Source: Oligoflexia bacterium (GTDB lineage: Bacteria > Bdellovibrionota > UBA1018). From it: 64,000 nt of DNA. Below the pieces are notes generated by a model, which saw only the letters and a list, made by a program, of their open reading frames with translations, was not told the DNA's origin and did not search any database. Positions 11,445 to 62,184 of this stretch are shown piece after piece. Numbering within the stretch: the first letter of the stretch is position 1; each line of letters opens with the position of its first letter. The position numbers and the translations under genes were made by a program. The stretch covers positions 1 to 64,000 of the forward strand of contig JACMNQ010000070.1 of assembly GCA_014378465.1 (NCBI GenBank), given 5' to 3'.

Positions 11445-12165
11445 TCATGAGCGCTCCCGGTACACTTCGTGCCAACTCTTCTCCAGGAACTCCCGTTCGT
11501 CAGGGTGAGCGATCGCGATCAGGGCTTTGGACCGCTGAGCCAGGTTCTTGCCGAAGAGATCAGCGACGCCATATTCAGTGATGACGTAGTGAACGTGAGC
11601 CCGAGTCGTGACGACACCGGCTCCCTGCTTCAACATCGGAACAATGCGGGAAACTCCCTTTCGGGTCCGGTTGGTCAGTGCGATGATCGGCTTGCCTGCC
11701 TGAGACAGCGCCGCACCTCGAATGAAGTCGATCTGTCCTCCCGCGCCGGAAATGATCCGTGGGCCGATCGAGTCGGCGCAGACCTGCCCGGTCAGATCAA
11801 TCTCGATCGCGGAGTTGATGGCGACGACCTTCGGATTGAGAGCGATATTGACCGGATTGTTCACGAAAGCGATATCCAGGCCAAGTACGGCCGGGTTATC
11901 GTGAATATGATCGTAAAGTCTCTTCGAACCCATGACAAAGCCGGCCACTGTGCGGCCCGGATGAATTTTTTTCAAGGAGTTGTCAACTGTACCACAGAGC
12001 AGAAGTTCGAGGGCCCCATCACTCCACATTTCCGAATGGACGCCGAGATGCCGATGAGCGGTGAGCGCCCGCAGCACCGCATCGGGCAGAGAGCCGATTC
12101 CCACCTGAAGAGTGGAACCGTCCTCGATCAGGTCAGCGGTGAGGACGCCGATTCTCTTCTCCTTG
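11445..12165 (-). pseudogene. C-terminal fragment of acetyl-CoA hydrolase/CoA-transferase
   Basis: KEKRIGVLTADLIEDGSTLQVGIGSLPDAVLRAL...GPRIISGAGGQIDFIRGAALSQAGKPIIAL...HYVITEYGVADLFGKNL; a TGA lies just upstream of KEKRIG in frame and the N-terminal domain is absent. Confidence 0.8.
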
Positions 12166-12189
12166 GGGGCTGTTCAAGGGTGGGTCCTG

Positions 12190-12343
12190 ACTTCACTGAA
12201 AACTCACCTTTCAAGACAGGGACGTCAGTCCCGCAAATCGTCGTTGTGGTGATTTTCATCAACGCCGCGCCATGAAAGGGACGCGGGATCGGCTTGTCCA
12301 CCAGGCCAATCTTCCCCGGACTGAGAAGGACCAGAGCTTTCAT
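12190..12343 (-). pseudogene. N-terminal fragment of zinc-dependent alcohol dehydrogenase
   Basis: MKALVLLSPGKIGLVDKPIPRPFHGAALMKITTTTICGTDVPVLKGEFSVKSG, then homology stops where the CoA-transferase fragment begins. Confidence 0.75.
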
Positions 12344-12656
12344 CGTTCCTTGCAGATGTGCCTGGATACTTTCAGATCGGACAGAAGTGTTCATGACGGG
12401 AAGACGGTGCAATCCCGAGCCCATGTGTAATTTGCGCTTTTTGCTCGTTCCAGCAGCATTCCAGTGGCATTTGTGTGCATCGGCAGGACTTTATGTCCCA
12501 TTACCAACCCCAGGAAAAGTGACGCTGCCGAGGCTTTATCCGGAAGCCAACGTGAAGCCCTTGGAAGCTTCCCGTTGAGCCATTTCAGAGATTGCCATCT
12601 CCCGCCTCCTGCGGTAATTCCGCGAGCGACTGCGAACATTCTGGAGATCTTGAACT

Positions 12657-13667
12657 TTGAAACCCATCCGCCTGACATCGGCGCTTGCCGCCTTCGCAAT
12701 CGCTTCACAGACAGCTATCGCCTCAACCGCAATCGTTTTGGAGCCCGCGCCGAGTCGTCCGACCGCGCTTCCTGCTGTTCTCCCAGGCGAGATTCAGATC
12801 CAGCTCCATGGCCACGCATTTTCACTCTTCACCAATGCCGATCTCAATCAAGCGCACCCGAACGTTGAACAAGCCCTCCTCATCATTCACGGGTCTGAAG
12901 GAAATGCGGATCGCTACTTCAAGACGGGCATGGCCGTGGCTTCCCAAATCGGCAAGTCAGACACCACCGTCGTGATCGCACCCCGATTCAAAGTCCAGAC
13001 CGACCGACCCGGACCAACCGAGTTCTCCTTCACTGACGAAGGCTGGATTCGCGGAGATGCAGCCCTCAACGACAGCAAGTTCGGCTCCTTTGACATCGTG
13101 GATTCACTGTTGATTCTCCTCAGCGATCGCCTGAATTTCCCTCACTTGAAATCGATCGTGGTCACTGGGCACTCCGCCGGCGGACAACTCACCCAGCGCT
13201 TTGCCATCGGTTCTTCCGTCGAAGACAGCCTGAAAGAGATCCGGATCCGGTACCTCGTGGTCAACCCGGGATCCTTCGCTTACTTGAATGGAGACCGCCG
13301 AGTGAGCTCCACTCTTTTCGCAATTCCCGCTGGAACCGGAAACTGCCGATACAACGCCTACAAATACGGACTCGAAAACCTGAATGCGTATGAATCGAGA
13401 ACTCCGGTGGCAGAGGCCATCCCACGCTACCTGGCCCGCGACATCGTTTACCTGACCGGCGAGCAGGACGTGCTCACCGATGGACTCGACAACAGCTGCG
13501 AGGCTGAACTCCAGGGCCACACCCGGCATGAACGCAGCTTGAACTTCAGGGCCTTCCTCGATCAGGACTACCCCGCCCACCGTCACAGCCTGCTCACAGT
13601 ACCCGGCATCGGTCACAGTGAATGGGGCATGTACACTTCAACTCAGGCCAAACAGCTTCTGTTTTGA
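12657..13667 (+). CDS. Secreted alpha/beta-hydrolase-like protein
   Basis: Signal peptide MKPIRLTSALAAFAIASQTAIAS (non-ATG start in track); VVTGHSAGGQLTQRF nucleophile elbow; C-terminal GIGHSEWGMY. Confidence 0.7.
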   Translation: MKPIRLTSALAAFAIASQTAIASTAIVLEPAPSRPTALPAVLPGEIQIQLHGHAFSLFTNADLNQAHPNVEQALLIIHGSEGNADRYFKTGMAVASQIGKSDTTVVIAPRFKVQTDRPGPTEFSFTDEGWIRGDAALNDSKFGSFDIVDSLLILLSDRLNFPHLKSIVVTGHSAGGQLTQRFAIGSSVEDSLKEIRIRYLVVNPGSFAYLNGDRRVSSTLFAIPAGTGNCRYNAYKYGLENLNAYESRTPVAEAIPRYLARDIVYLTGEQDVLTDGLDNSCEAELQGHTRHERSLNFRAFLDQDYPAHRHSLLTVPGIGHSEWGMYTSTQAKQLLF

Positions 13668-13809: not shown

Positions 13810-14385
13810 TCAGAAAATGAACCGGTAATTTCTACCGAAATCCGAGTCCCATTTCCCCTGATCATCAAAGGCCGAGGTTTCAAGCTGAATGGATGGGCCC
13901 CTGAAGAGATCGCTGACAAAGGAGCTTTCCTGCGGATTTCCAGGATGCACTTCCCAGACGATCATTTCCGAATCTGGAGTTTCCTGAACGCGGTTTCGGC
14001 ACCACGAATATTCTCCAGGATGGGCCGGCAGAGTTGCTCCAGGAGCAGTACCATGGGGTTTCGCGACGCACTTGGATGCATGCGGGTCACCGAAGACCAC
14101 GGTTGGCTGCTCCCACTGATTCTGGATCAAAGGAAGTGAATACGCTCGGCCCTGACCATTCTCAAGCAGGACGTTCACGCGATTCCTGGAGGACTTGACG
14201 AGGTATCCCGTATACTTGATTTGGACCCGAGGAAAAGTGCCCTCGGAGCGATTGATCAGGCAAACTTCGAATCCGGCCTGGTTCCGGCACTCGTGAGTGA
14301 CGGGATAGCCCGGGGGGTAATCGCTCGCATGTACAGAAATCGAAAACAAAATGGCAAACAGCGGGGCCAGCGAAATACTTTTCAT
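13810..14385 (-). CDS. Secreted hypothetical protein
   Basis: MKSISLAPLFAILFSISVHASDYPPGYP signal peptide; open frame of ~190 aa. Confidence 0.55.
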   Translation of the reverse strand: MKSISLAPLFAILFSISVHASDYPPGYPVTHECRNQAGFEVCLINRSEGTFPRVQIKYTGYLVKSSRNRVNVLLENGQGRAYSLPLIQNQWEQPTVVFGDPHASKCVAKPHGTAPGATLPAHPGEYSWCRNRVQETPDSEMIVWEVHPGNPQESSFVSDLFRGPSIQLETSAFDDQGKWDSDFGRNYRFIF

Positions 14386-14410
14386 GAGGTGCACCCTAGC
14401 ACATTCCATG

Positions 14411-15220
14411 TCACGGCGTCAGAACTTTCAAGAGAGGGAAACCACCTGAAGTTTCCTGGGTGCAGGCGCCACCTTCACATGGAGGGCAGACGTCCCACAT
14501 TGTTTCAATTTCCCCGCCTCCACCCGCTTTTGAATGACTTCTGAAGAAATCCACCACGCACTTCAACACATCATCACGAACGGGATCACTTTCCATCATG
14601 AGTTCATGAAACGCTCCCGAGTACCGTACCCCTTTGCAGTCCGCCGCCGCTGAACAGAGCTGGTCCTGAGCCGCCACTTCAACGATCTTGTCCTGCCCAG
14701 CTTGTAGAATCAGAGTCGGAATGTGGAGCTTCACCCCTTCCGCGCGAAGGGTTCGGGTAGCCCGGAGAGTTTCGTGCACCCAGCGATGGGTGGGTCGACC
14801 GATGACCAGGTCAGGGTCTGCGCTACAGAAAGCTGCCGCCATGTTGAAGCGTGCGAGGCTGTGTGTCACTTCGTTTCGCCCAAACGGAGGAAAGGGTTCG
14901 TACCCTTTTCGGTCCAGTGACGCTTTCTGACCTGCACCCAGCGCAACTGCTGCGCCCGTGATGGTCGTGGCGACATTCAGCGAGTAAGGCGTGGTCTTGA
15001 TCTGATACATCGGGGAAACCAGAACTGCGGAGGCGAAAATATCCGGGTGATTCATCAGGTAGAACGTTCCGATCGCGCCGCCCATGGAATTCGTGAGCAG
15101 TTGCAAGCTCGACCAGTTGCGCTTGAGAACCACTTCATCCATGAACTGCCTGAAGTCAGTGACGTAATCATCAAACTTCACGATGGCTGGCGGGGTCGAG
15201 GCCATCACGGAACGCCGCAA
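14411..15220 (-). CDS. Lysophospholipase-like alpha/beta hydrolase, apparently N-terminally truncated
   Basis: LQLLTNSMGGAIGTFYLMNHPDIFASAVLVSPMYQIKTTPYS; begins at the equivalent of the KFDDYV.DF region of PldB-like proteins. Confidence 0.7.
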   Translation of the reverse strand: MRRSVMASTPPAIVKFDDYVTDFRQFMDEVVLKRNWSSLQLLTNSMGGAIGTFYLMNHPDIFASAVLVSPMYQIKTTPYSLNVATTITGAAVALGAGQKASLDRKGYEPFPPFGRNEVTHSLARFNMAAAFCSADPDLVIGRPTHRWVHETLRATRTLRAEGVKLHIPTLILQAGQDKIVEVAAQDQLCSAAADCKGVRYSGAFHELMMESDPVRDDVLKCVVDFFRSHSKAGGGGEIETMWDVCPPCEGGACTQETSGGFPLLKVLTP

Positions 15221-15306
15221 TCTAGCTCTCGACCTCCTTGACCTTCCGTGTTAACTGCCTGTCACATCCAGCTTTACAATCGGGCCGGGTCCGGAGACTT
15301 CAGTTC

Positions 15307-16623
15307 ATGCGTGTTCAACTTCATCGTTTTTCGACTCTCTTGCCCACTGGGCTCCTGCTTCTGGGGCTCACTGCCGGGACTTCTTCCCAGTCTGAGGCCC
15401 GGGTCAGCTTTGATTCCGGTCAGCAGATTCTGCTCGATGCCGAGATCCAGAACGGGGTGATGCTCAGCCCGGCCGGAACGTCCGAGCGCGAACTGAATCA
15501 GGCGATCCGAAATCAGCTGTCCTACACCATCGGACAGCTCGCCGTCATCGACGCCGCACCTCGAGTGAACCGATTTGAAGTCACGGTCGTTCAGATTGAA
15601 GAGGTGCCCGCCGCGAATGGGGAGCCAGCCCAGAGAAGAATTCACTACCGGGCCAAAGGACAGTTGGCCTGGGGTCGCAACTGGAGAATCCCCGCTCAGA
15701 TCGAACTGATTCTGCCGAGTCAGGGACATGAAATCGCATTGACTGCATTCGGTGAGCACTATCTGAAGCCCTGTTCGACAGACAAATATGCCGAGAACTG
15801 GAGCCTCTTCTATTACTTTCATCCGCTCATGGCAGGATGTCCGCTTCAGATCAGGAACACCGCAACCGAGTCAGATGTCGTGCGCTTTCCGGTCTCCTTC
15901 GCCGTCAGCCGCGAGAACTCAACTGGAAAATCCCCGGAGTACGGTGAAATCTGGAAGGACGGAAAGTTGACCGTCACCGCGATCTTTGGCAAGTACTCGC
16001 CCGAATCCACATCGAAAGACGACGACGGACTCCTGGGTTACAACGATTTCCACGAATATCTTTTACAGCAGTTCGGCCAGCCCACCACTCGCAGTGAAAC
16101 CTTTTTGGGCGCCCCCGGCCTCGCTCATCCGGTGCTGGATCTCAGCTTTCGCTCGTACCGGGGCCCGATTCTGGTCCACATGGAATTGATCGACAGCATG
16201 ACTCAGACTCCTCCAGAATTCAAAAAGCGCTTTGTCCAGAATGCTCGTGATGCAGATCTCGTGATTTACAGCGGCCATTCAGAACTGGGCGGAAGCATGG
16301 AGGCCCTGAGCAATCTGATGGAATTCAGCGCTGGGAAGTACCAGATCTTTCTCGTGAACGGCTGTGGCTCGTTTTCTCATCTGAATGACCGACTCTTTGA
16401 AAAGCGAGCACTGATCAATCCCGAAGCGGCCGCAAGCAAGTACCTGGACGTCATTTCGAATTCACTGTCGAACTACTTCGTCTGGATGCCGATTGAAGCC
16501 GTCAACCTCATCACGGACCTTTCGAGCCGCAGTCGCCCTGGCTACCGCCAGATCCTGGACCGCTTTGATCCCCGCCAGCGCGTGGTGGTCGAAGGCGAAG
16601 AGGACAATCACTGGCCCTTGTAG
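15307..16623 (+). CDS. Secreted protein with GHS...NGC dyad, possible clan CD (gingipain/caspase-like) fold
   Basis: Signal peptide MRVQLHRFSTLLPTGLLLLGLTAGTSSQSEA; DADLVIYSGHSELGG...KYQIFLVNGCGS; paralog of 60868..62184. Confidence 0.6.
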   Translation: MRVQLHRFSTLLPTGLLLLGLTAGTSSQSEARVSFDSGQQILLDAEIQNGVMLSPAGTSERELNQAIRNQLSYTIGQLAVIDAAPRVNRFEVTVVQIEEVPAANGEPAQRRIHYRAKGQLAWGRNWRIPAQIELILPSQGHEIALTAFGEHYLKPCSTDKYAENWSLFYYFHPLMAGCPLQIRNTATESDVVRFPVSFAVSRENSTGKSPEYGEIWKDGKLTVTAIFGKYSPESTSKDDDGLLGYNDFHEYLLQQFGQPTTRSETFLGAPGLAHPVLDLSFRSYRGPILVHMELIDSMTQTPPEFKKRFVQNARDADLVIYSGHSELGGSMEALSNLMEFSAGKYQIFLVNGCGSFSHLNDRLFEKRALINPEAAASKYLDVISNSLSNYFVWMPIEAVNLITDLSSRSRPGYRQILDRFDPRQRVVVEGEEDNHWPL

Positions 16624-49544: not shown

Positions 49545-52500
49545 TCACAAAATGACTTCAACCGTGTGCTTCTTTCCATCATCCGTGATCGGAATCTCTC
49601 CACTCGGGTAGACGATGCCATCCAGAGTGATGCGCTTGTCTGAGATCGAAGTGGCGTTCGTATTCCTGACTTGAATCAGGTATTCCGTCTCCCGGGCTTC
49701 GCCGACTGACGGCGCGCCCGCGCCTGCCTTTGCCACCGCTGGTCTCCGGTAGACGATCTCAAAGCCTTCCCAGTTCTGCGGGATACAGGGCTCAATCCGA
49801 AGTCGATTGCCCCGGAGATCGAACCCCAGGATGGATTCGATGGCAGAGCGGTACATCCAGCTTGCCGACCCCGTGTACCAGGTCCAGCCGCCGCGACCCA
49901 CATGAGGAGAATGCCCGTAAATGTCGGCGGCCATCACGTAAGGCTCCACTTTGTATTTGTGCAGCCCAGCGCGGGTCGCCGAATGATTGATCGGGTTCAG
50001 CAGACTGTAAAGCTCGAGCGCACGGTCCCCGTCCCCAAGAGTCGCGTAAGCCATCATGGTCCAGATTGCCGCGTGAGTGTATTGTCCGCCATTTTCACGC
50101 ACACCCGGAACATAGCCCTTGATGTAGCCTGGATCGGCTGCGCTCTTGTCAAACGGCGGACTGAAGAGATTGATCAATCCGTCACTGCGCCGAATGAGGT
50201 GCTGATCGACCGCGGCCATCGCTCTCACGCTTCTCGCCGGATCTCCGGCACCGGAGAGCACGGCCCAGGACTGGGCGATTGAATCGATCTTGCACTCTTC
50301 ACTCTTCGAGGACCCCATGGCTGATCCATCATCGAAGTAAGCGCGCAGGTACCAGTCGCCATCCCAGGCATTCTTTTCGACATTGGTCTTGAGAGTCACC
50401 AGGTGCTGCGCATAACGAGAGGCGCGAGCGGCGTTTTCAAGATCACCAGGTGAACCTGTCGACAGGCCGGCAGCCCCATTCGTGAAATTCCTGAAGAGTG
50501 GGAGAAATTGACTGAGCGTCTTGTAGAGAAACCACGCGACCCAGACGCTTTCGCCTCGGCCCTGATTTCCCACGCGGTTCATCCCGTCATTCCAGTCGCC
50601 CGATCCCATGAGCGGCAGCCCGTGAGCGCCAGTCTTGAGGCTGCGGTCCAGCGTGCGAGCGCAGTGTTCAAACACCGTTGCCGTTTCGTGGGACTGCTCA
50701 GGCAACGTGTAGGAGTCGTCTTCGCCGGCTTCCAGTTCCTTGGACTCAATGAAAGATACGGTTTCGCTCAGCACCGTGAGATCACCCGTCACTTTGACGT
50801 AAAAACTCACGACGTAGGGGAGCCAGATGAGGTCATCTGAGAAACGTGTCCTCACTCCTCGTCCCGTCGGAGGATGCCACCAGTGCTGGACATCCCCTTC
50901 CTTGAACTGCCTCGCGGCCGCGGTCAGAATCTGCGCGCGCGCGATTTCAGGCTTGGAGTAGATCAGGGCCATGACGTCCTGAAGCTGATCGCGGAAACCG
51001 AACGCTCCGCCCGATTGGTAGAAAGCGGAACGGGCCCAGATTCGGCAGGAAAGAGTCTGATAGACGAGCCAGCGATTGACGAGCGTGTTCATTGACTCAT
51101 CGGGCGTTCGGATCTCGAGCGCGCCGAGCGCCTCTTCCCAGTGCGTGATCACGCGGTCAAAGGCGGCACGGACTTCGAAAGGATTCCGGTAGAGCGTGGC
51201 CAGGCGTCTCGCTTCTTCAACGGAATCGGCCTGCCCAAGAAGAATGCTGATTTCGCGCTCTTCACCAGGAGCGAGTTCAAAGTGCGTCTGGAAGGCGGCG
51301 CAGGGATCCATCCCTCCACCTGAACGCCCGGAAAGTTCCACGCGGTCCATGGCGGCTGGCCGGGCCGCGCTGCCATTTCGACCGAGAAATTCTCGACGAT
51401 CGCAGGTGAATGTACGATTGGCCTCACCCATGTCCGCAAACGCCACCCGGTCAGCGAATTCATTATTGTAGGCATTTCTGGCGAAAATCGCCTGAGTTCT
51501 GGTATCCACTTCCGTGACGACTGAAGGCGCCGAAACTCCGCGCTGAAAACCGAGCACCCACTCGACGTAACTGGACACGGACAGACGCCGAGGGTGCGCT
51601 CCGAGGTTCTTCAGCTTCAATCGACTGATCTTGACCCCGGCTTCGAGGACGACGAAGAGCTGCAGCTGTTGAGCGATCCCATGACTCGTGTGCTGAAACT
51701 GAGTGTAACCCTGACCATGCGTGACGATGTAGGGTTCGACTTCGCGAATGGGCAACGGTGTCGGACTCCAGAACTCGCCCGTCTCTTCATCGCGAATGTA
51801 GATGGCTTCGCCCACCGGATCTGAAACCGCGTCGTTGGACCAGGGAGTGAGCCGATTCTCGCGGCTGTTGACGGACCACGTGTAACCCGAACCGGATTCA
51901 GAGATGAGGAATCCGAAGTCCTTGGAATTCGCGATGACGTTGATCCAGGGAGCAGGAGTCCATTGCCCTTCCTTGAGGATGATGACGTACTCGCGTCCGC
52001 CTTCACCGAAACCGCCGAGGCCGTTGAAGAACTTGAGCACCGGCATCTTCAAAACCGGAGCGGGAGGAAGTTTCCGTCTGTCGTTTGACTTTTCAAGGCG
52101 CCGAGGCAATTCATTTTCAATCGGGCGACGCTTGAGCTGTTCCTCGAGAGTGCCTTTTTCAGCACTGAGCATGACTCGGGCCACGGCCTTGAGCAGAATC
52201 ACGTCCGCTTCGGGCATGATGTCCGTGCGCCGGATGAAGACTCCGCCAGGCTTGTCAAGCAGGGCCTGAGACCCGCTCATGCGGATCTGCCGCTGCAACT
52301 CTTCCTGAAGGGACTGGATGTAGCTCGGGGCACGTTCGTTGAGGATGACCAGGTCAATGGAGAGGCCCTTGAGTCTCAGATACTCATGCGCGTGCAGGAG
52401 TTGGCGAACCATCGCCATGTCCTTTTCATCGCTGATGCGAGTCAGAAGGATCGGCAGATCACCGCTGATGCCGTAAGCCCAGAGGTTGGACTGCTTGCGA

Positions 52501-55500
52501 GTGTTGAGAGCCAGATGATGAGAGCGCGGACGCAGCATCGGATCTGAAAACAAAATTCTTCCGGCCAGACGCTGAAAGAGATGGGCCTCGTCCGTGCCGA
52601 CATTCAGATGCCGCAACTGAACCTGCGACTGAGTCCAGGCGATTTCGGCTTCGCGCGCGAAAATGTGGATCTCACGGTACTTGTCCGCGAGGCGCAACGC
52701 CTCTTCACGGGACTCCGCGGTCCCGGTGGAGAAAGTGACCTTGACGGTCGCACGCGGTCCAACCCGAACGGTTTCACGCAGGGCGAAGATCGGATCAAGC
52801 ACTGCGCCTACGGTGTTTGAAAGCGGTCGGCCCTCATGAAAGACGAAGGGGTTCGAGGCGTCCCGTCCGCGGCCGATGAATTTGGAACGGTCGGTTTCGT
52901 ACTGCAGCGGACTGACCCCTTCAGAATCCGACACCACTCCGTGAAAGGCCCAGATCTGCTTCTCATGGTTCGAGCGCCGACGTCGGGTGCCCAGCAGCGC
53001 ATTGCCTTCAGGAACGAACTCGGTCTGCACGAAGAGATTGCTGTAGGCCGGGTGGGCGGCATCATCATTGGGTTTGGCCAGGACCACTTCCATGAAGCTC
53101 GTCAGTTCAAACTCACACGCTTCATCCGAATTGTTCGTGATCGAAACCCGCCGGAGTTCGACTGGATCCTCAGGTGAAACGATGATTTCCGTGTGAGTGA
53201 GGATCTTGCCGTCCTTGCCGTCACAGCGCGAGATCTCCACTCGGTCCTCGGCGAAATTGACTTTGTAGCTCTTCGGCACGCTCGCGACCGGCTGGTAACC
53301 GCTGGACCAGTAATCCCCGCTGGCGCGATTGCGGATATAGATGAAGTGCCCCCAGGAGTCGCGCGTCCAGTCCTCGCGCCAACGGCTGACGGAAAGTCCC
53401 GAAGAGCGTGAATAACCACTCCCTGCTGAGGTGACCATGACTGAGTAGGTCCCGTTCGACAGCAGCTGAGTCCGCGGCGTCGAGACGTGGATGTCCGAAT
53501 ATTGCCGAGGATTCGGGGCGGCGATGAAACGCAGGCTCTCGGAGTGAACTTCTTCGGCGCGAGGTCTGGAGATCGCCACCGCGTGCGGGATCTTCTCCTG
53601 CAACAGCAGCTGAGTCGCCTGCACGAGCGGATCGGCGTGAAAACGGCGCTGCATCGGAGCGTCGTTCACCAGGTGATTGAGTGCGACGAGACTCATGCCC
53701 TGATGATGGGCCATGAAGGATTTCAGGATGAAGAATTTCTGATTTTGCGGCAATCGATCGGCCGTGTAATCAATGGATTCGTAGAAACCGTAGCGAGCGA
53801 AAGCCCCAGTCGAAACCAGAGTTTTCAGATTGGTCAGCGCCGACCAGGGATCAATCACCGCCGCAAGCAGCGTCGAATAGGGTGAAATCACGAGATCATC
53901 GCTGAGGCCGCGCTTCAGACCCAGCCCCGGAATCCCGAAAGGTCCGTACTGAAAATTCAACTGCAGATCGCGAGCGTTATAACCGGCTTCTGAAATTCCC
54001 CAGGGAACATTCCTGTTCTTTCCATACTCGATCTGGCGAGCGACGATCGCCTGGTAAGTCTGTTCGAGCAGAGTGTTCTCGTACCGTTTCATGACGAGAA
54101 CGGGCATCAGGTATTCGAACATGGTCGCAGTCCAGGCAATGAGAGCGCGACTGCCGAGCACCGGAGTCATCTTGCGACCGAGGCGGAACCAATGCTCTTC
54201 AGGCACGTCTCCCTTGGCAATCGCGATGAAACTCGCCAGACGCGATTCCGATGCCAGCAGGTCGTAATAGGAAACGTCCCGTCTGGCATCCGCGACATTG
54301 TAACCGATGACGAAAAGCTTGCGAGCCTGATCAAAGAGAAACGTGAAATCCATCGCCAGGGCCAGTTCATTGCTCCGAACCTCAAGGGAACGGAGTCTGG
54401 CGGAGATTTCCGCCGGAACGATTTCAGCTTCATCGCGCAGAAACTGCAGCACCTGATTTCGGGCGGCCTTCAGCCAGATCCAGACCTCCGACGGGGCATC
54501 ACTCACTCCGCGCTTGACCGGCAGGTCAGGAGACTCCTGAGTTCCCACGAGGGCGGTCAGAATGTCGGCTGCGACTTCGAGCTTTTCAAGCAAAGCGCTC
54601 AGACTCCCGGCAAAACCCTCGACCTGCGGCTCACCCCTTGCCAGATCCAGAGTGTCCTGGATCGCCTGCAGGAGCTGAGCATGGGTGACGGACCCCGTGC
54701 TTTCAGCGAAACTTTCCAGCTTCTCAGCTTCTCCGCGCAGAAGGGCCAACGTGTCCAGCAGTCCCGCCCGAGCCTGGACGTTGAACTTCGGTCCACTCGC
54801 GAGTTCGATGCAGGCCTGCTTCAGCGTCAGCAGATGCCCTGCGAGATTTCCGCTGTCGACGGTCGAAATGTATTGCGGCCGCAGAGGCTCCAGGGATTTC
54901 GTATCGTACCAGTTGAAGAGATGGCCATTCATCTTCTCCATCTTCTCAAGAGTGGTGATCGTGCGCTCCAGGCTCTCGACGCACTCCAGGAACCCAAGAT
55001 ATCCGAAATCATGGGCGGAGACCGTGGAGAGCAGCTGCAATCCGATGTTCGTTGGCGAAGTGCGGAAGGCGACCACGGGTCTCGGATCTTCCTGAAAATT
55101 GTCAGGAGCCAGCCAATGCCCTTCGGCCGTGACGAAGGTTTCAAAGAAATGCCAGGTTCTTCGAGCGTAGGCGCGAAAGGCGTGCAGCTCACCGGTTCCA
55201 AGGCCGCGCACTTTCACCGGCACTTTGCGCTTGAGCCAGGTCTTGATGAGAGGATTCAGGGTCCAGAGTGCGAGAAAGGGAGTGGCCTCGCGGAAGGCAG
55301 CAGGATGAAACGCCGACAGACCTGCGATGATGCCCACGGCGGACCACGTGCCGAAATCCGGAAAATTTCTGAATATCCAGGTTGTTCCAGCAGTCCTGGA
55401 ACCCCTGGCTGAGCTCTCGAGCTGAGCGAAAGTCACCCACTCGAGGAGTTTCTTCTTTGAAATCAGCTTGCGGTACGAAGTCCGCACGATGGCGTCCGTC

Positions 55501-58259
55501 TGCATGCCTGCCTGCGAAGCGAGAAACGACACCATCAGGATGATCTGAATGATCTTGTCCTGAAAACCGAGAGCACACTTCCGGAAGTACTCACGCCAGG
55601 GTAGATTCTGCGGCCGAAAGACGCTTCCCGTGGTCAAAGGCGCATAGATCGGAAAACTGAGAATCAGGATGACGACAAGAGTGCCTGACAGCGCCCCACC
55701 CGGAAAAACACTCCAGGAGAGCACGAGCCAGGCGAACATCACCTGGGCCATGAGGCTTCGTCTGAGATTGTCAAAGATCTTCCACCTGGAAATCAGGGAC
55801 AGCGAGTTGGGACCGAAGATCCAGGCGGCGATCTGCCAGTCGCCGCGCACCCACCGGTGCTGACGTTTTGAGAAAGCGACATAATCTGATGGATAATCAT
55901 CGAAAAGTTCGATGTCCGTGACGAGAGCGGCTCGCGCATAGGATCCTTCAAAGAGATCGTGACTCAGGACCGAGTTTTCCGGGACACGGTTCTCCAGCGC
56001 TCTTTCAAAGGCGTCGACGACATACAGACCCTTGCCGGTGAAACTGCCTTCGGCGAAAAGGTCCTGATACACGTCTGAAACCGCGGTCGTGTAGGGATCG
56101 AGTCCAGTGTTGCCGGAGAAAATCTGCGCGAACCGGGTTCTGCGACCGCTGCCCAGATCCACGCTCACCCGGGGCTGAAGGATTCCGTAACCTTCCGTGA
56201 CTCGTTTCACGGTTTCATCATAGTACGGTTGATTGAGAGGATGAGTGATGGTCCCGATGAGGCGATGAGCGCAGTTGCGAGGCAGCTGAGTATCGGAGTC
56301 GAGTGTGATCACGTACTGAATCTGGAGGAGCGCGGCGGGCAACGGCCCGGACAGAAGGTAGCTCGTATCCGTGGCCCCTCGAATGAGACGATTGAATTCC
56401 TGAAGCTTGCCCCGTTTGCGTTCCCAGCCGATCCACTTTCCTTCAGACGGATTCCACTGCCGACGGCGAAGAAAGGAGTGAAACCTGAACTCACCGGGAT
56501 CAGCCGCATATTTGTGATTGAGTTCGCGGATTCCGAGCTCGGCGACTGCCTGAAGCGCTTCGTCACCCGGTGCGCGCTCCAAGTCCGCGTCCGCAAAATC
56601 CCCCAGCAGCGCGAAGTGGATGTGAGGATCGCGGTTCGCGAGGTAATGCACTTCAAGACTTTCAATCAGGCGGAGCACGCCCTCTTCACCCGTGAAGAGC
56701 GTGGGGATGACGACGATGGAACGGGAATGCTCGGGAATCCCCTTCTCCAGGTCGAGCTTGGGCAAAGCCTGGGGCTTCATGAAAAAAGTGACGTAGTGAT
56801 TGAGAAGGTTCAGACCGAATTCACTGGCCAGGGAAACCACGAGCACGATGAGCGCGACGACCTTGAAGAAAGACCAGCCTCCCCCCGCCTCTGCCGAGTC
56901 CGGCGAACTCACGAAGTGAGCGATCGTGAGGGCGGAAAACCCCAGAGTCAGAAACGAAAGAGTTCCCAGGTAGAAAGCTGAAGGGTATTTTCGAATCAGC
57001 CGGATGACCGCCTCGCGGAAGTAAGGGCGGTAATCGAACGCTTTCTCGAGTTCCAGAATCCCATCACCCACGAGAAAATAGCCGACATGGGATCGGCGGA
57101 GGTCGCGCGGATCCTTCTTGTGATTGCGTTTACCGAGTTCGACCGCTTTTTGGGCGACTTCAAGTTCACTCGGCAGTTTCGAAGACCGCGAAGCGATTCT
57201 TTCCACCGCGTGCCGGTAACTGTCGCGCGTCTGAAAATCCATTTGAGAATACGATCCGGTCGCGTCCTGAGCCAGTACCGGATCCACAAGACTGATGCTT
57301 TCAAAGAAGTCACGCCAGTCCAGCGCCGAGAGCAGTCGCATGCTGGAGATGATGTTCCCGACCGTGACCTGCGAAGCGGCCTGCTGGTGATGCTCAAGCT
57401 GAATGACCTGATGAGTGCTGGTGTCCTGGGTCTGGAGCTGCTTTTCAAGCCAGTCAAAAGCCGGCCAGACATCGGGATCCTGGTCACGGAGTCGCTGAAT
57501 CAGCTGAACGACGAAGGCTCGGTCGAAGAACTCCGGCCGCCCCAGTTCAAGCGACATCAGATTGATGAGATCTCGAGGCTCGCTGCCGGGCTGCACCCCG
57601 AGCTCAAGCAGTCGATCCGCGAGTGCGTCCGCCTGCTCGCGCTTCTGCCTGGCGTTCACGATGGAAAGGGCCAGCGGCTCAAGCTGCTGGACCAGGGCAA
57701 TTCGCAGAGTGAGCGCGACGGCCCAGAGTTCTCCCATCTTGAGTGGAGTGACGGTCTGGTAAGATTGCAGGAACCGTTTCAGGCTTTCAGCATCAAGTCT
57801 CGAATCCGTGTGAGCGATGAAGGCGAGAGCCATCGCGTAGACTCGCGGGTAGCCGGCAAGCTCCCCTTCGGCAAGTTTCGGAAGTTCGTAGTAGTAATCC
57901 TTGGGCAGATCGCGCTGGATCCCCCGGATCTGATCTTCGATGATGTGAAAGTTGTCGAGAAACCACTCAGCCGCGGGTGAAATCGCCTGCTTGGTTCTCA
58001 CCGTATCGGCGAGCAGACGGTACGCCGCCAGCAACCGCTTCCCACTTTCGCTCAATTCTGGAAGAAGGGACCGACCCCGAGCGGGATCAGCACTCACCGT
58101 CAGCTGCGTCGCGAGGTAGCTGGAGTACTGCTCGAGTCGCTCCACGCTGAAAAGCTCTTCCCGAACCGGATCGGTATTCAAAAGGTCAGTCGAACGACGA
58201 AGAATCTTCAGGAAGTCGGCGTAGCTGCGGCCAGATTCTGGCTTTTGATGCGGTCTCAA
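49545..58259 (-). CDS. ndvB: Cyclic beta-1,2-glucan synthase (NdvB/ChvB-like; GT84 + GH94 modules)
   Basis: 2904 aa; RSIVVIPTLFTGEEGVLRLIESLEVHYLANRDPHIHFALLGDFADA...; ILQPRVSVDLGS..RTRFAQIFSGNTGLDPYTTAVSDVYQDLFAEGSFTGKGLYVVDAFERAL; GGAFGFRDQLQDVMAL; GSGDWNDGMNRVG. Confidence 0.93.
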   Translation of the reverse strand: MRPHQKPESGRSYADFLKILRRSTDLLNTDPVREELFSVERLEQYSSYLATQLTVSADPARGRSLLPELSESGKRLLAAYRLLADTVRTKQAISPAAEWFLDNFHIIEDQIRGIQRDLPKDYYYELPKLAEGELAGYPRVYAMALAFIAHTDSRLDAESLKRFLQSYQTVTPLKMGELWAVALTLRIALVQQLEPLALSIVNARQKREQADALADRLLELGVQPGSEPRDLINLMSLELGRPEFFDRAFVVQLIQRLRDQDPDVWPAFDWLEKQLQTQDTSTHQVIQLEHHQQAASQVTVGNIISSMRLLSALDWRDFFESISLVDPVLAQDATGSYSQMDFQTRDSYRHAVERIASRSSKLPSELEVAQKAVELGKRNHKKDPRDLRRSHVGYFLVGDGILELEKAFDYRPYFREAVIRLIRKYPSAFYLGTLSFLTLGFSALTIAHFVSSPDSAEAGGGWSFFKVVALIVLVVSLASEFGLNLLNHYVTFFMKPQALPKLDLEKGIPEHSRSIVVIPTLFTGEEGVLRLIESLEVHYLANRDPHIHFALLGDFADADLERAPGDEALQAVAELGIRELNHKYAADPGEFRFHSFLRRRQWNPSEGKWIGWERKRGKLQEFNRLIRGATDTSYLLSGPLPAALLQIQYVITLDSDTQLPRNCAHRLIGTITHPLNQPYYDETVKRVTEGYGILQPRVSVDLGSGRRTRFAQIFSGNTGLDPYTTAVSDVYQDLFAEGSFTGKGLYVVDAFERALENRVPENSVLSHDLFEGSYARAALVTDIELFDDYPSDYVAFSKRQHRWVRGDWQIAAWIFGPNSLSLISRWKIFDNLRRSLMAQVMFAWLVLSWSVFPGGALSGTLVVILILSFPIYAPLTTGSVFRPQNLPWREYFRKCALGFQDKIIQIILMVSFLASQAGMQTDAIVRTSYRKLISKKKLLEWVTFAQLESSARGSRTAGTTWIFRNFPDFGTWSAVGIIAGLSAFHPAAFREATPFLALWTLNPLIKTWLKRKVPVKVRGLGTGELHAFRAYARRTWHFFETFVTAEGHWLAPDNFQEDPRPVVAFRTSPTNIGLQLLSTVSAHDFGYLGFLECVESLERTITTLEKMEKMNGHLFNWYDTKSLEPLRPQYISTVDSGNLAGHLLTLKQACIELASGPKFNVQARAGLLDTLALLRGEAEKLESFAESTGSVTHAQLLQAIQDTLDLARGEPQVEGFAGSLSALLEKLEVAADILTALVGTQESPDLPVKRGVSDAPSEVWIWLKAARNQVLQFLRDEAEIVPAEISARLRSLEVRSNELALAMDFTFLFDQARKLFVIGYNVADARRDVSYYDLLASESRLASFIAIAKGDVPEEHWFRLGRKMTPVLGSRALIAWTATMFEYLMPVLVMKRYENTLLEQTYQAIVARQIEYGKNRNVPWGISEAGYNARDLQLNFQYGPFGIPGLGLKRGLSDDLVISPYSTLLAAVIDPWSALTNLKTLVSTGAFARYGFYESIDYTADRLPQNQKFFILKSFMAHHQGMSLVALNHLVNDAPMQRRFHADPLVQATQLLLQEKIPHAVAISRPRAEEVHSESLRFIAAPNPRQYSDIHVSTPRTQLLSNGTYSVMVTSAGSGYSRSSGLSVSRWREDWTRDSWGHFIYIRNRASGDYWSSGYQPVASVPKSYKVNFAEDRVEISRCDGKDGKILTHTEIIVSPEDPVELRRVSITNNSDEACEFELTSFMEVVLAKPNDDAAHPAYSNLFVQTEFVPEGNALLGTRRRRSNHEKQIWAFHGVVSDSEGVSPLQYETDRSKFIGRGRDASNPFVFHEGRPLSNTVGAVLDPIFALRETVRVGPRATVKVTFSTGTAESREEALRLADKYREIHIFAREAEIAWTQSQVQLRHLNVGTDEAHLFQRLAGRILFSDPMLRPRSHHLALNTRKQSNLWAYGISGDLPILLTRISDEKDMAMVRQLLHAHEYLRLKGLSIDLVILNERAPSYIQSLQEELQRQIRMSGSQALLDKPGGVFIRRTDIMPEADVILLKAVARVMLSAEKGTLEEQLKRRPIENELPRRLEKSNDRRKLPPAPVLKMPVLKFFNGLGGFGEGGREYVIILKEGQWTPAPWINVIANSKDFGFLISESGSGYTWSVNSRENRLTPWSNDAVSDPVGEAIYIRDEETGEFWSPTPLPIREVEPYIVTHGQGYTQFQHTSHGIAQQLQLFVVLEAGVKISRLKLKNLGAHPRRLSVSSYVEWVLGFQRGVSAPSVVTEVDTRTQAIFARNAYNNEFADRVAFADMGEANRTFTCDRREFLGRNGSAARPAAMDRVELSGRSGGGMDPCAAFQTHFELAPGEEREISILLGQADSVEEARRLATLYRNPFEVRAAFDRVITHWEEALGALEIRTPDESMNTLVNRWLVYQTLSCRIWARSAFYQSGGAFGFRDQLQDVMALIYSKPEIARAQILTAAARQFKEGDVQHWWHPPTGRGVRTRFSDDLIWLPYVVSFYVKVTGDLTVLSETVSFIESKELEAGEDDSYTLPEQSHETATVFEHCARTLDRSLKTGAHGLPLMGSGDWNDGMNRVGNQGRGESVWVAWFLYKTLSQFLPLFRNFTNGAAGLSTGSPGDLENAARASRYAQHLVTLKTNVEKNAWDGDWYLRAYFDDGSAMGSSKSEECKIDSIAQSWAVLSGAGDPARSVRAMAAVDQHLIRRSDGLINLFSPPFDKSAADPGYIKGYVPGVRENGGQYTHAAIWTMMAYATLGDGDRALELYSLLNPINHSATRAGLHKYKVEPYVMAADIYGHSPHVGRGGWTWYTGSASWMYRSAIESILGFDLRGNRLRIEPCIPQNWEGFEIVYRRPAVAKAGAGAPSVGEARETEYLIQVRNTNATSISDKRITLDGIVYPSGEIPITDDGKKHTVEVIL

Positions 58260-60867: not shown

Positions 60868-62184
60868 GTGAAAACCCTCCCAAGATTCGCGTGGCAAGGT
60901 CTCGGTCTCATAATATTCTTCGGTGCTGGAATCACCACAGCCCAGGCGCAAATCGTGAACTTTCCCAGTTCCACGGACGATCACTCTTTTGACTCTGCAC
61001 ATCAAGTCGCCCTTGACGGGATCATCCCCGAAGGAATTCTACTCAGCGCAAGTCCGGACTCCGAGCAGGAAGCCGAAGTGAAGAATCAGCTCAAATACAC
61101 TTTGGGCTATTTCAACAATCTTGAAGGCGGTGTTCAACTCCCTGATCTCAAAGTACAGCTCCTCGGTCGTGAACGGCTGCCCCACGGCCTGACTCGAATC
61201 AGGTATTCCGCGCAGTTGCTCATTTCATGGAGCCGCGCTCGTCAGATTCCGTCCCAGCTTCAGCTTATCCTGCCCGAAAAAGTCGATGACGCATCCATCG
61301 AAACCTACTTTCAGACTTACGGCACAAGCTGTGTGAGTGAAAACGACGCCACCGTCGCCGGATTCTGGTACTTTTACAGGCCGCTCTCCTGCTCACTGCG
61401 AAGTCCACGTGCCGGAGACCTTGCCGTGCGTTTCCCGATTTCACTCCGCCTCAGCGCGATCAACACTGAAGGAAAAGCTCCCGAATATGGCAAGATCTGG
61501 GAGGACGGTGAACTCACCGCCACATTCGTGGTGGGAAAGTACAGCTCCGGTGCGACTTCAACGGAAGATGTCGGGATCCAGAACTACAACGCGATCTACT
61601 CAGGCCTCTTCAGCACCTTCGGTCAGCCCGTTGCCGTATCCCCTGCCATCAACGGTCTGCCGGGTGCGCAGTACCCGGAGATGCATCTCACTTTCAACCT
61701 TTCGCAGAATCGACGCGCCGTCATTCACCTCCTGCTCGTGGATGAACTCTCCAGCGTGGGAGCGGAATTCAAGGCAAAGTACAGTCGGTTGACCGAAGTC
61801 TCTGATCTCGTGATCTACAACGGACATTCGGGACTCGGGGCGAACATCGCCAATCTCAACCGCATGGGACGCTTCAAAGCCGGAAAGTACCAGATTTTCA
61901 TGATCAATGGCTGTGACTCCCTCTCATACGCCGATCACACACTTTTCGAGGCCCATCAGAGGGTCAATCCCGCCTACGCGCCCACCAAGTACCTCGACGT
62001 GATCATCAATGCGATGCCCGCTTATTTCAATCAGATGGCCCACGCTTCGTTGCAATTGCTCTCGGCGACGCTGGGGTCCCAGAAAACCTACCGCCAGATT
62101 CTCGCGCAAGTGGATCCGAGCCAGAAGGCCATCGTCATCGGTGAAGAGGACAATCAGTGGCCCGAGACCTTTGGCGCTCCCTGA
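60868..62184 (+). CDS. Secreted protein, paralog of 15307..16623 with GHS...NGC dyad
   Basis: GTG start, signal peptide; SDLVIYNGHSGLGA...KYQIFMINGCDSLSY; ends VIGEEDNQWPE (cf. VEGEEDNHWP). Confidence 0.65.
   Translation: MKTLPRFAWQGLGLIIFFGAGITTAQAQIVNFPSSTDDHSFDSAHQVALDGIIPEGILLSASPDSEQEAEVKNQLKYTLGYFNNLEGGVQLPDLKVQLLGRERLPHGLTRIRYSAQLLISWSRARQIPSQLQLILPEKVDDASIETYFQTYGTSCVSENDATVAGFWYFYRPLSCSLRSPRAGDLAVRFPISLRLSAINTEGKAPEYGKIWEDGELTATFVVGKYSSGATSTEDVGIQNYNAIYSGLFSTFGQPVAVSPAINGLPGAQYPEMHLTFNLSQNRRAVIHLLLVDELSSVGAEFKAKYSRLTEVSDLVIYNGHSGLGANIANLNRMGRFKAGKYQIFMINGCDSLSYADHTLFEAHQRVNPAYAPTKYLDVIINAMPAYFNQMAHASLQLLSATLGSQKTYRQILAQVDPSQKAIVIGEEDNQWPETFGAP

Follow-up and report, generated by a model that had tools for sequence, protein, structure and literature searches.

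The locus and the encoded protein

The window, that is the whole stretch of 64,000 nucleotides analysed here, carries at positions 15307-16623 of the forward strand an intact open reading frame with an ATG start, which encodes 438 amino acids plus the stop codon and to which homologues can be aligned over nearly the full length. A GGAG sequence on the same strand (15293-15296), 10 nt upstream of the start, might serve as the ribosome-binding site. The first 31 residues (15307-15399) have, judged by eye, the appearance of a Sec signal peptide with a guessed cleavage site, in line with an earlier note on this DNA in which the protein was described as secreted. In several relatives a lipobox-like Cys could be recognized, likewise by eye, in the signal-peptide-like N-terminal stretch.

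Two domains can be distinguished in the protein, and their features all lie on the forward strand. Residues 35-205 (15409-15921) form, according to the alignment and the structure model, a beta-rich N-terminal domain which is conserved in the family and contains Cys156 (codon 15772-15774) and Cys178 (codon 15838-15840), likely partners in a disulfide bond. Residues 215-438 (15949-16620) constitute the predicted clan-CD-like catalytic domain, assigned from the models and from hhalign alignment to the C14 peptidases. In this domain the predicted catalytic His324 (codon CAT, 16276-16278) stands past a modelled strand of residues 318-323, and the predicted nucleophile Cys353 (codon TGT, 16363-16365) past a modelled strand of residues 346-351. 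Attention had been drawn to this pair by the earlier note through the stretches DADLVIYSGHSELGG and KYQIFLVNGCGS; both were found in the translation, and the Cys codon at 16363 follows the His codon at 16276 by exactly 29 residues, as claimed. The limits proposed there for the conserved C-terminal domain, residues 240-400, had to be extended to about 215-438. Where that note recognized nothing in the N-terminal ~300 residues, the first ~205 turned out to make up another domain, which the family members share.

A paralogue of the same length (438 aa, GTG start, about 39% identical) is encoded at 60868-62184 on the forward strand of the same window, where His320 (codon 61825) and Cys349 (codon 61912) have the same 29-residue spacing. 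Besides this paralogue the genome contains two more members on other contigs, L003 on C34 (the two C34 matches being one open reading frame) and L005 on C60, so that there are three members in addition to the protein of 15307-16623.

The gene is adjoined by 12657-13667, 13810-14409 and 14411-15220; two of these neighbours look like alpha/beta-hydrolase genes, and one, which no Pfam family matches, seems to encode a secreted protein. At 11445-12424 the match of a 219-aa open reading frame to acetyl-CoA hydrolase is confined to the C-terminal domain of that enzyme, and an adjoining 98-aa frame resembles by eye the N-terminus of zinc alcohol dehydrogenase; the two are possibly pseudogenes or products of frameshifts. 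A large gene on the reverse strand (49545-58259) encodes a 2904-aa protein in which GH94, glucoamylase and glycosyltransferase segments are combined; it belongs to the cyclic beta-1,2-glucan synthase type.

Conservation and distribution of the family

The conservation of the protein was analysed in an alignment of 64 members, most of which are only 20-25% identical to it. Among the columns passing a 90% filter G76, G228, Y321, G323, H324 and C353 were fully invariant, while Q70, Y114, P137, C156, Y169, P173, C178, P210, Y212, D239, F305, L327, G328, Y345, G430, D433 and N434 were conserved in at least 90% of the members. The two residues on which the earlier proposal depended, the His and the Cys, were thus retained in 64 of 64 sequences, always in the order His then Cys that is characteristic of the clan CD dyad, at a distance of 29-42 residues. 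The invariance in such divergent members, together with the identical spacing in the paralogue, indicates that the motif goes beyond chance. The residue after the His was Ser in 42 members and Ala in the other 22, and is therefore a trait of the family; three of the 20 C14 sequences counted have Ser there as well.

The near-invariant Cys pair of the N-terminal domain (61/64) was lost jointly in L042, L044 and L062, as expected of residues forming a disulfide bond. The protein of 15307-16623 itself deviates at three near-invariant sites in the vicinity of the dyad (E326 for Gly, F356 for Tyr and H358 for Tyr), thus its activity or specificity may differ from that of the other members.

In whole-genome searches the family turned up in 35% of the Bdellovibrionota genomes sampled (129 of 369; 78 of 235 high-quality genomes), in 81 of 284 genomes of Myxococcota (28%) and in 25 of 295 genomes of Elusimicrobiota (8%); for the scan of named genomes a profile built from the nine closer rows of the alignment was used. 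Scans with Pfam, NCBIfam, PHROG and PADLOC gave no relevant family for the protein or its relatives, and in 21 members scanned there were zero matches to PF00656 (C14), PF01364 (C25) and PF03415 (C11). Since the family has no model among the Pfam and NCBIfam collections searched, most likely its proteins have been entered in databases as hypothetical. Sequence searches of the PDB returned chance-like matches and no relative; one of them, a ribosomal L17 chain (E 2e-4), was rejected because its own relatives scored 0.05 or worse. In the collection of literature searched, no paper was found that links Bdellovibrio to clan CD cysteine peptidases or to clostripain.

On the phylogenetic tree both proteins of the window fall in a 22-row clade (SH-aLRT 100) together with 20 myxobacterial sequences, and this clade excludes the two other copies of the genome; the branching inside the clade and the long branches elsewhere are uncertain. 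A PPC domain (PF04151), the bacterial pre-peptidase C-terminal domain, was found above the curated cut-off in four of five myxobacterial proteins of the window type that were scanned, and this counts in favour of a peptidase. More distant relatives were seen in a Myxococcales MAG (L084, L085 and L086), which have a GHSMLG or a GHAGP motif and are extended at the C-terminus, with a sub-threshold match to the lamin tail domain in L085 and Cys-rich stretches in others.

Probable relationship with clan CD peptidases

An AlphaFold2 model of the full-length protein, built on a 39-row alignment, had a pLDDT of 82 and a pTM of 0.82, and the domain model of a canonical member, L031, reached 91.5 and 0.92, respectively. 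In the models the alpha/beta domain is arranged as strand, helix, strand, beta-hairpin, helix and a strand that ends before the GH motif, followed by helix, a strand ending before the Cys, helix, strand and helix. Both models place the His and the Cys 1-3 residues beyond the ends of successive strands, which agrees with the strand-GH and strand-C arrangement suggested in the earlier note. This predicted placement fits the published description of clan CD, where the dyad residues sit at the points where beta3 and beta4 end on their C-terminal side (PMC4357240); in that clan the two strands are neighbours within a six-stranded sheet. Neither of the two outcomes that the earlier note named as speaking against its idea was encountered, since both residues are invariant and, in the models, follow the ends of successive strands.

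The main evidence against clan CD comes from the Foldseek comparison of these models with the PDB: no clan CD entry was present in the best 50 of 833 and of 1,060 matches (E up to 10). With the full and with the domain model these best 50 were mostly Ras, FeoB and other GTPase domains, and the order of strand, helix, strand, hairpin and helix does resemble that of a G domain. It could be assumed on this basis that the domain is a Rossmann-like, for example GTPase-like, fold without peptidase function, in which the His and the Cys serve binding or structure. The TM-scores of the matches were low, at most about 0.5, with rmsd values of 5-19 A, the P-loop GxxxxGK[ST] is absent from the conserved columns, and the protein has an apparent export signal, whereas such GTPases work in the cytosol.

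Profile-profile comparisons (hhalign) were made with alignments prepared from genome loci of C14 (n=32), C11 (n=29) and C25 (n=7) peptidases and of FeoB G domains (n=23). When both sides were gap-trimmed, the family domain matched C14 with probabilities of 84% and 89% and E-values of 8e-6 and 2e-6, the best of which is to be read in the light of the fact that trimming variants were tried in turn, against 0.28-0.44 for the FeoB G domains. Without trimming on either side the E-values for C14 were 6e-4 to 9e-3, and trimming of the family side lowered them into the range of 4e-5 to 1.6e-4; C14 ranked first in every variant. With both sides trimmed the alignment begins at beta1 and includes the C-terminal helices, covering up to 193 columns and pairing the Cys residues, and in 100 block shuffles the score was at most 20.4 versus 42.9 for the real profile. 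Nine clusters of neighbour genes or antisense frames gave 0.24 or worse as controls. For accepted pairs of the clan, compared untrimmed in the same set-up, the values were 2e-4 to 7e-4 (C14-C25) and 0.06 (C11-C14). When the family was divided, the 42 rows that do not belong to the myxobacterial-type clade gave 5e-6 to 1e-5, and the 22 that do, among them the protein of 15307-16623, gave a weak signal (0.004-0.013). The register of the His depends on the direction of the query: with C14 as query and the alignment forced to full length His falls on His, and in the family-to-C14 direction the His strand of C14 lands on the beta-hairpin of the family. Taken together, the profiles point to a remote homology to C14 across the catalytic domain. 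We consider a clan-CD-type domain in the protein probable, and the non-peptidase, GTPase-like fold very improbable.

C11 (0.15-0.29) and C25 (0.05-0.09) were rejected as the closest family, their profile similarities not being significant. From the original description as gingipain/caspase-like, the caspase side could therefore be kept, through the similarity to the C14 family of caspases and metacaspases, and the gingipain side could not. In common with C14 (caspases, metacaspases and bacterial C14; PF00656) the family has the His-then-Cys order at successive strand ends, the Gly before the His, a beta1 with a conserved Gly and a collinear profile alignment. It is unlike C14 in having Ser or Ala after the His, a beta-hairpin that precedes the His strand, a conserved N-terminal domain containing a Cys pair, an apparent export signal and a conserved GDEDN-like C-terminus. 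The gingipains (C25, PF01364) are secreted, as is predicted for the family, and local hhalign alignments pair the two His residues with each other and likewise the two Cys, but the C25 set has GHG or SHG and the similarity is statistically weak. Clostripain (C11, PF03415) is a separate protein, a clan CD peptidase that is widespread among the bacteria concerned (45 of 58 relatives). A non-Gly residue after the His is also described for YabG (MEROPS U57), a His-Cys peptidase proposed for clan CD (PMC12445089); YabG, unlike the family, is a sporulation peptidase of endospore formers.

Proposed function of the family

Most likely the proteins are exported cysteine peptidases of clan CD and form a family of their own, to which C14 is the nearest. 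The invariant dyad, its predicted placement on the strands and the profile similarity to C14 support the earlier idea of a candidate new clan CD family as a hypothesis, and the invariant His-Cys pair combined with the distant similarity to caspases and metacaspases argues that the proteins are probably a new group of caspase-like cysteine peptidases. For the protein of 15307-16623 we estimate a probability of about 0.7 that it is an exported cysteine endopeptidase of this previously unrecognized family, as suggested by sequence and models.

Such an enzyme would be exported to the periplasm or the cell surface, the signal being read from the sequence only. Residues from about 215 to 438 would fold into the caspase/metacaspase-like alpha/beta domain, where His324, presumably close to Cys353, would activate it, and Cys353 would attack the substrate carbonyl after a specific P1 residue. 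The N-terminal domain with the Cys pair might act as a prodomain or as a module binding substrates or partners.

A clan CD fold could also be used differently. By analogy, the main reaction might be transpeptidation or ligation instead of hydrolysis, since the clan includes the GPI transamidase and legumain has ligase activity; an exported enzyme of this kind could link surface proteins to one another or fix them in place. We consider this unlikely, and about equally so that the protein of 15307-16623 has kept the caspase-like fold but lost its activity and now binds a partner: the changes at the three near-invariant positions near its dyad would suit such a loss; against it stands the 64/64 invariance of the dyad, which is unexpected for a family of dead enzymes.

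Also in favour of a peptidase, in one sublineage a C11 clostripain gene lies directly downstream on the same strand in seven distinct genomes (family loci L028, L030, L031, L032, L037, L039 and L040). The reading frames of the two genes overlap in six of these genomes, and the adjacency is kept although L028, L030, L037 and L039 share no more than 49-56% identity with L031 in the family domain. The six clostripain neighbours scanned matched PF03415 with E-values of 1e-17 to 3e-25, and a signal-peptide-like start was seen in all three that were read. The copy at 15307-16623 has no clostripain neighbour, and its genome gave no C11 match. Upstream of the family gene, on the opposite strand, a phospholipase-D-type-like neighbour recurs at L032, L040 and L065. 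It is a tentative and rather doubtful suggestion that, within a family spanning Bdellovibrionota, Myxococcota and Elusimicrobiota, the new protease and the clostripain of the tight operon form in this one lineage an exported two-protease system, possibly cross-activating, with the N-terminal domain as prodomain.

If the proposed assignment is true, it adds one family to clan CD, in which a 2025 review counts eight (PMC12445089). The clostripain operon offers a testable two-protease system, and the dyad a simple two-residue test of activity. Two of the phyla rich in the family are known for predatory members, and the proteins described here are candidate exported peptidases with a possible part in predation or in envelope maturation.
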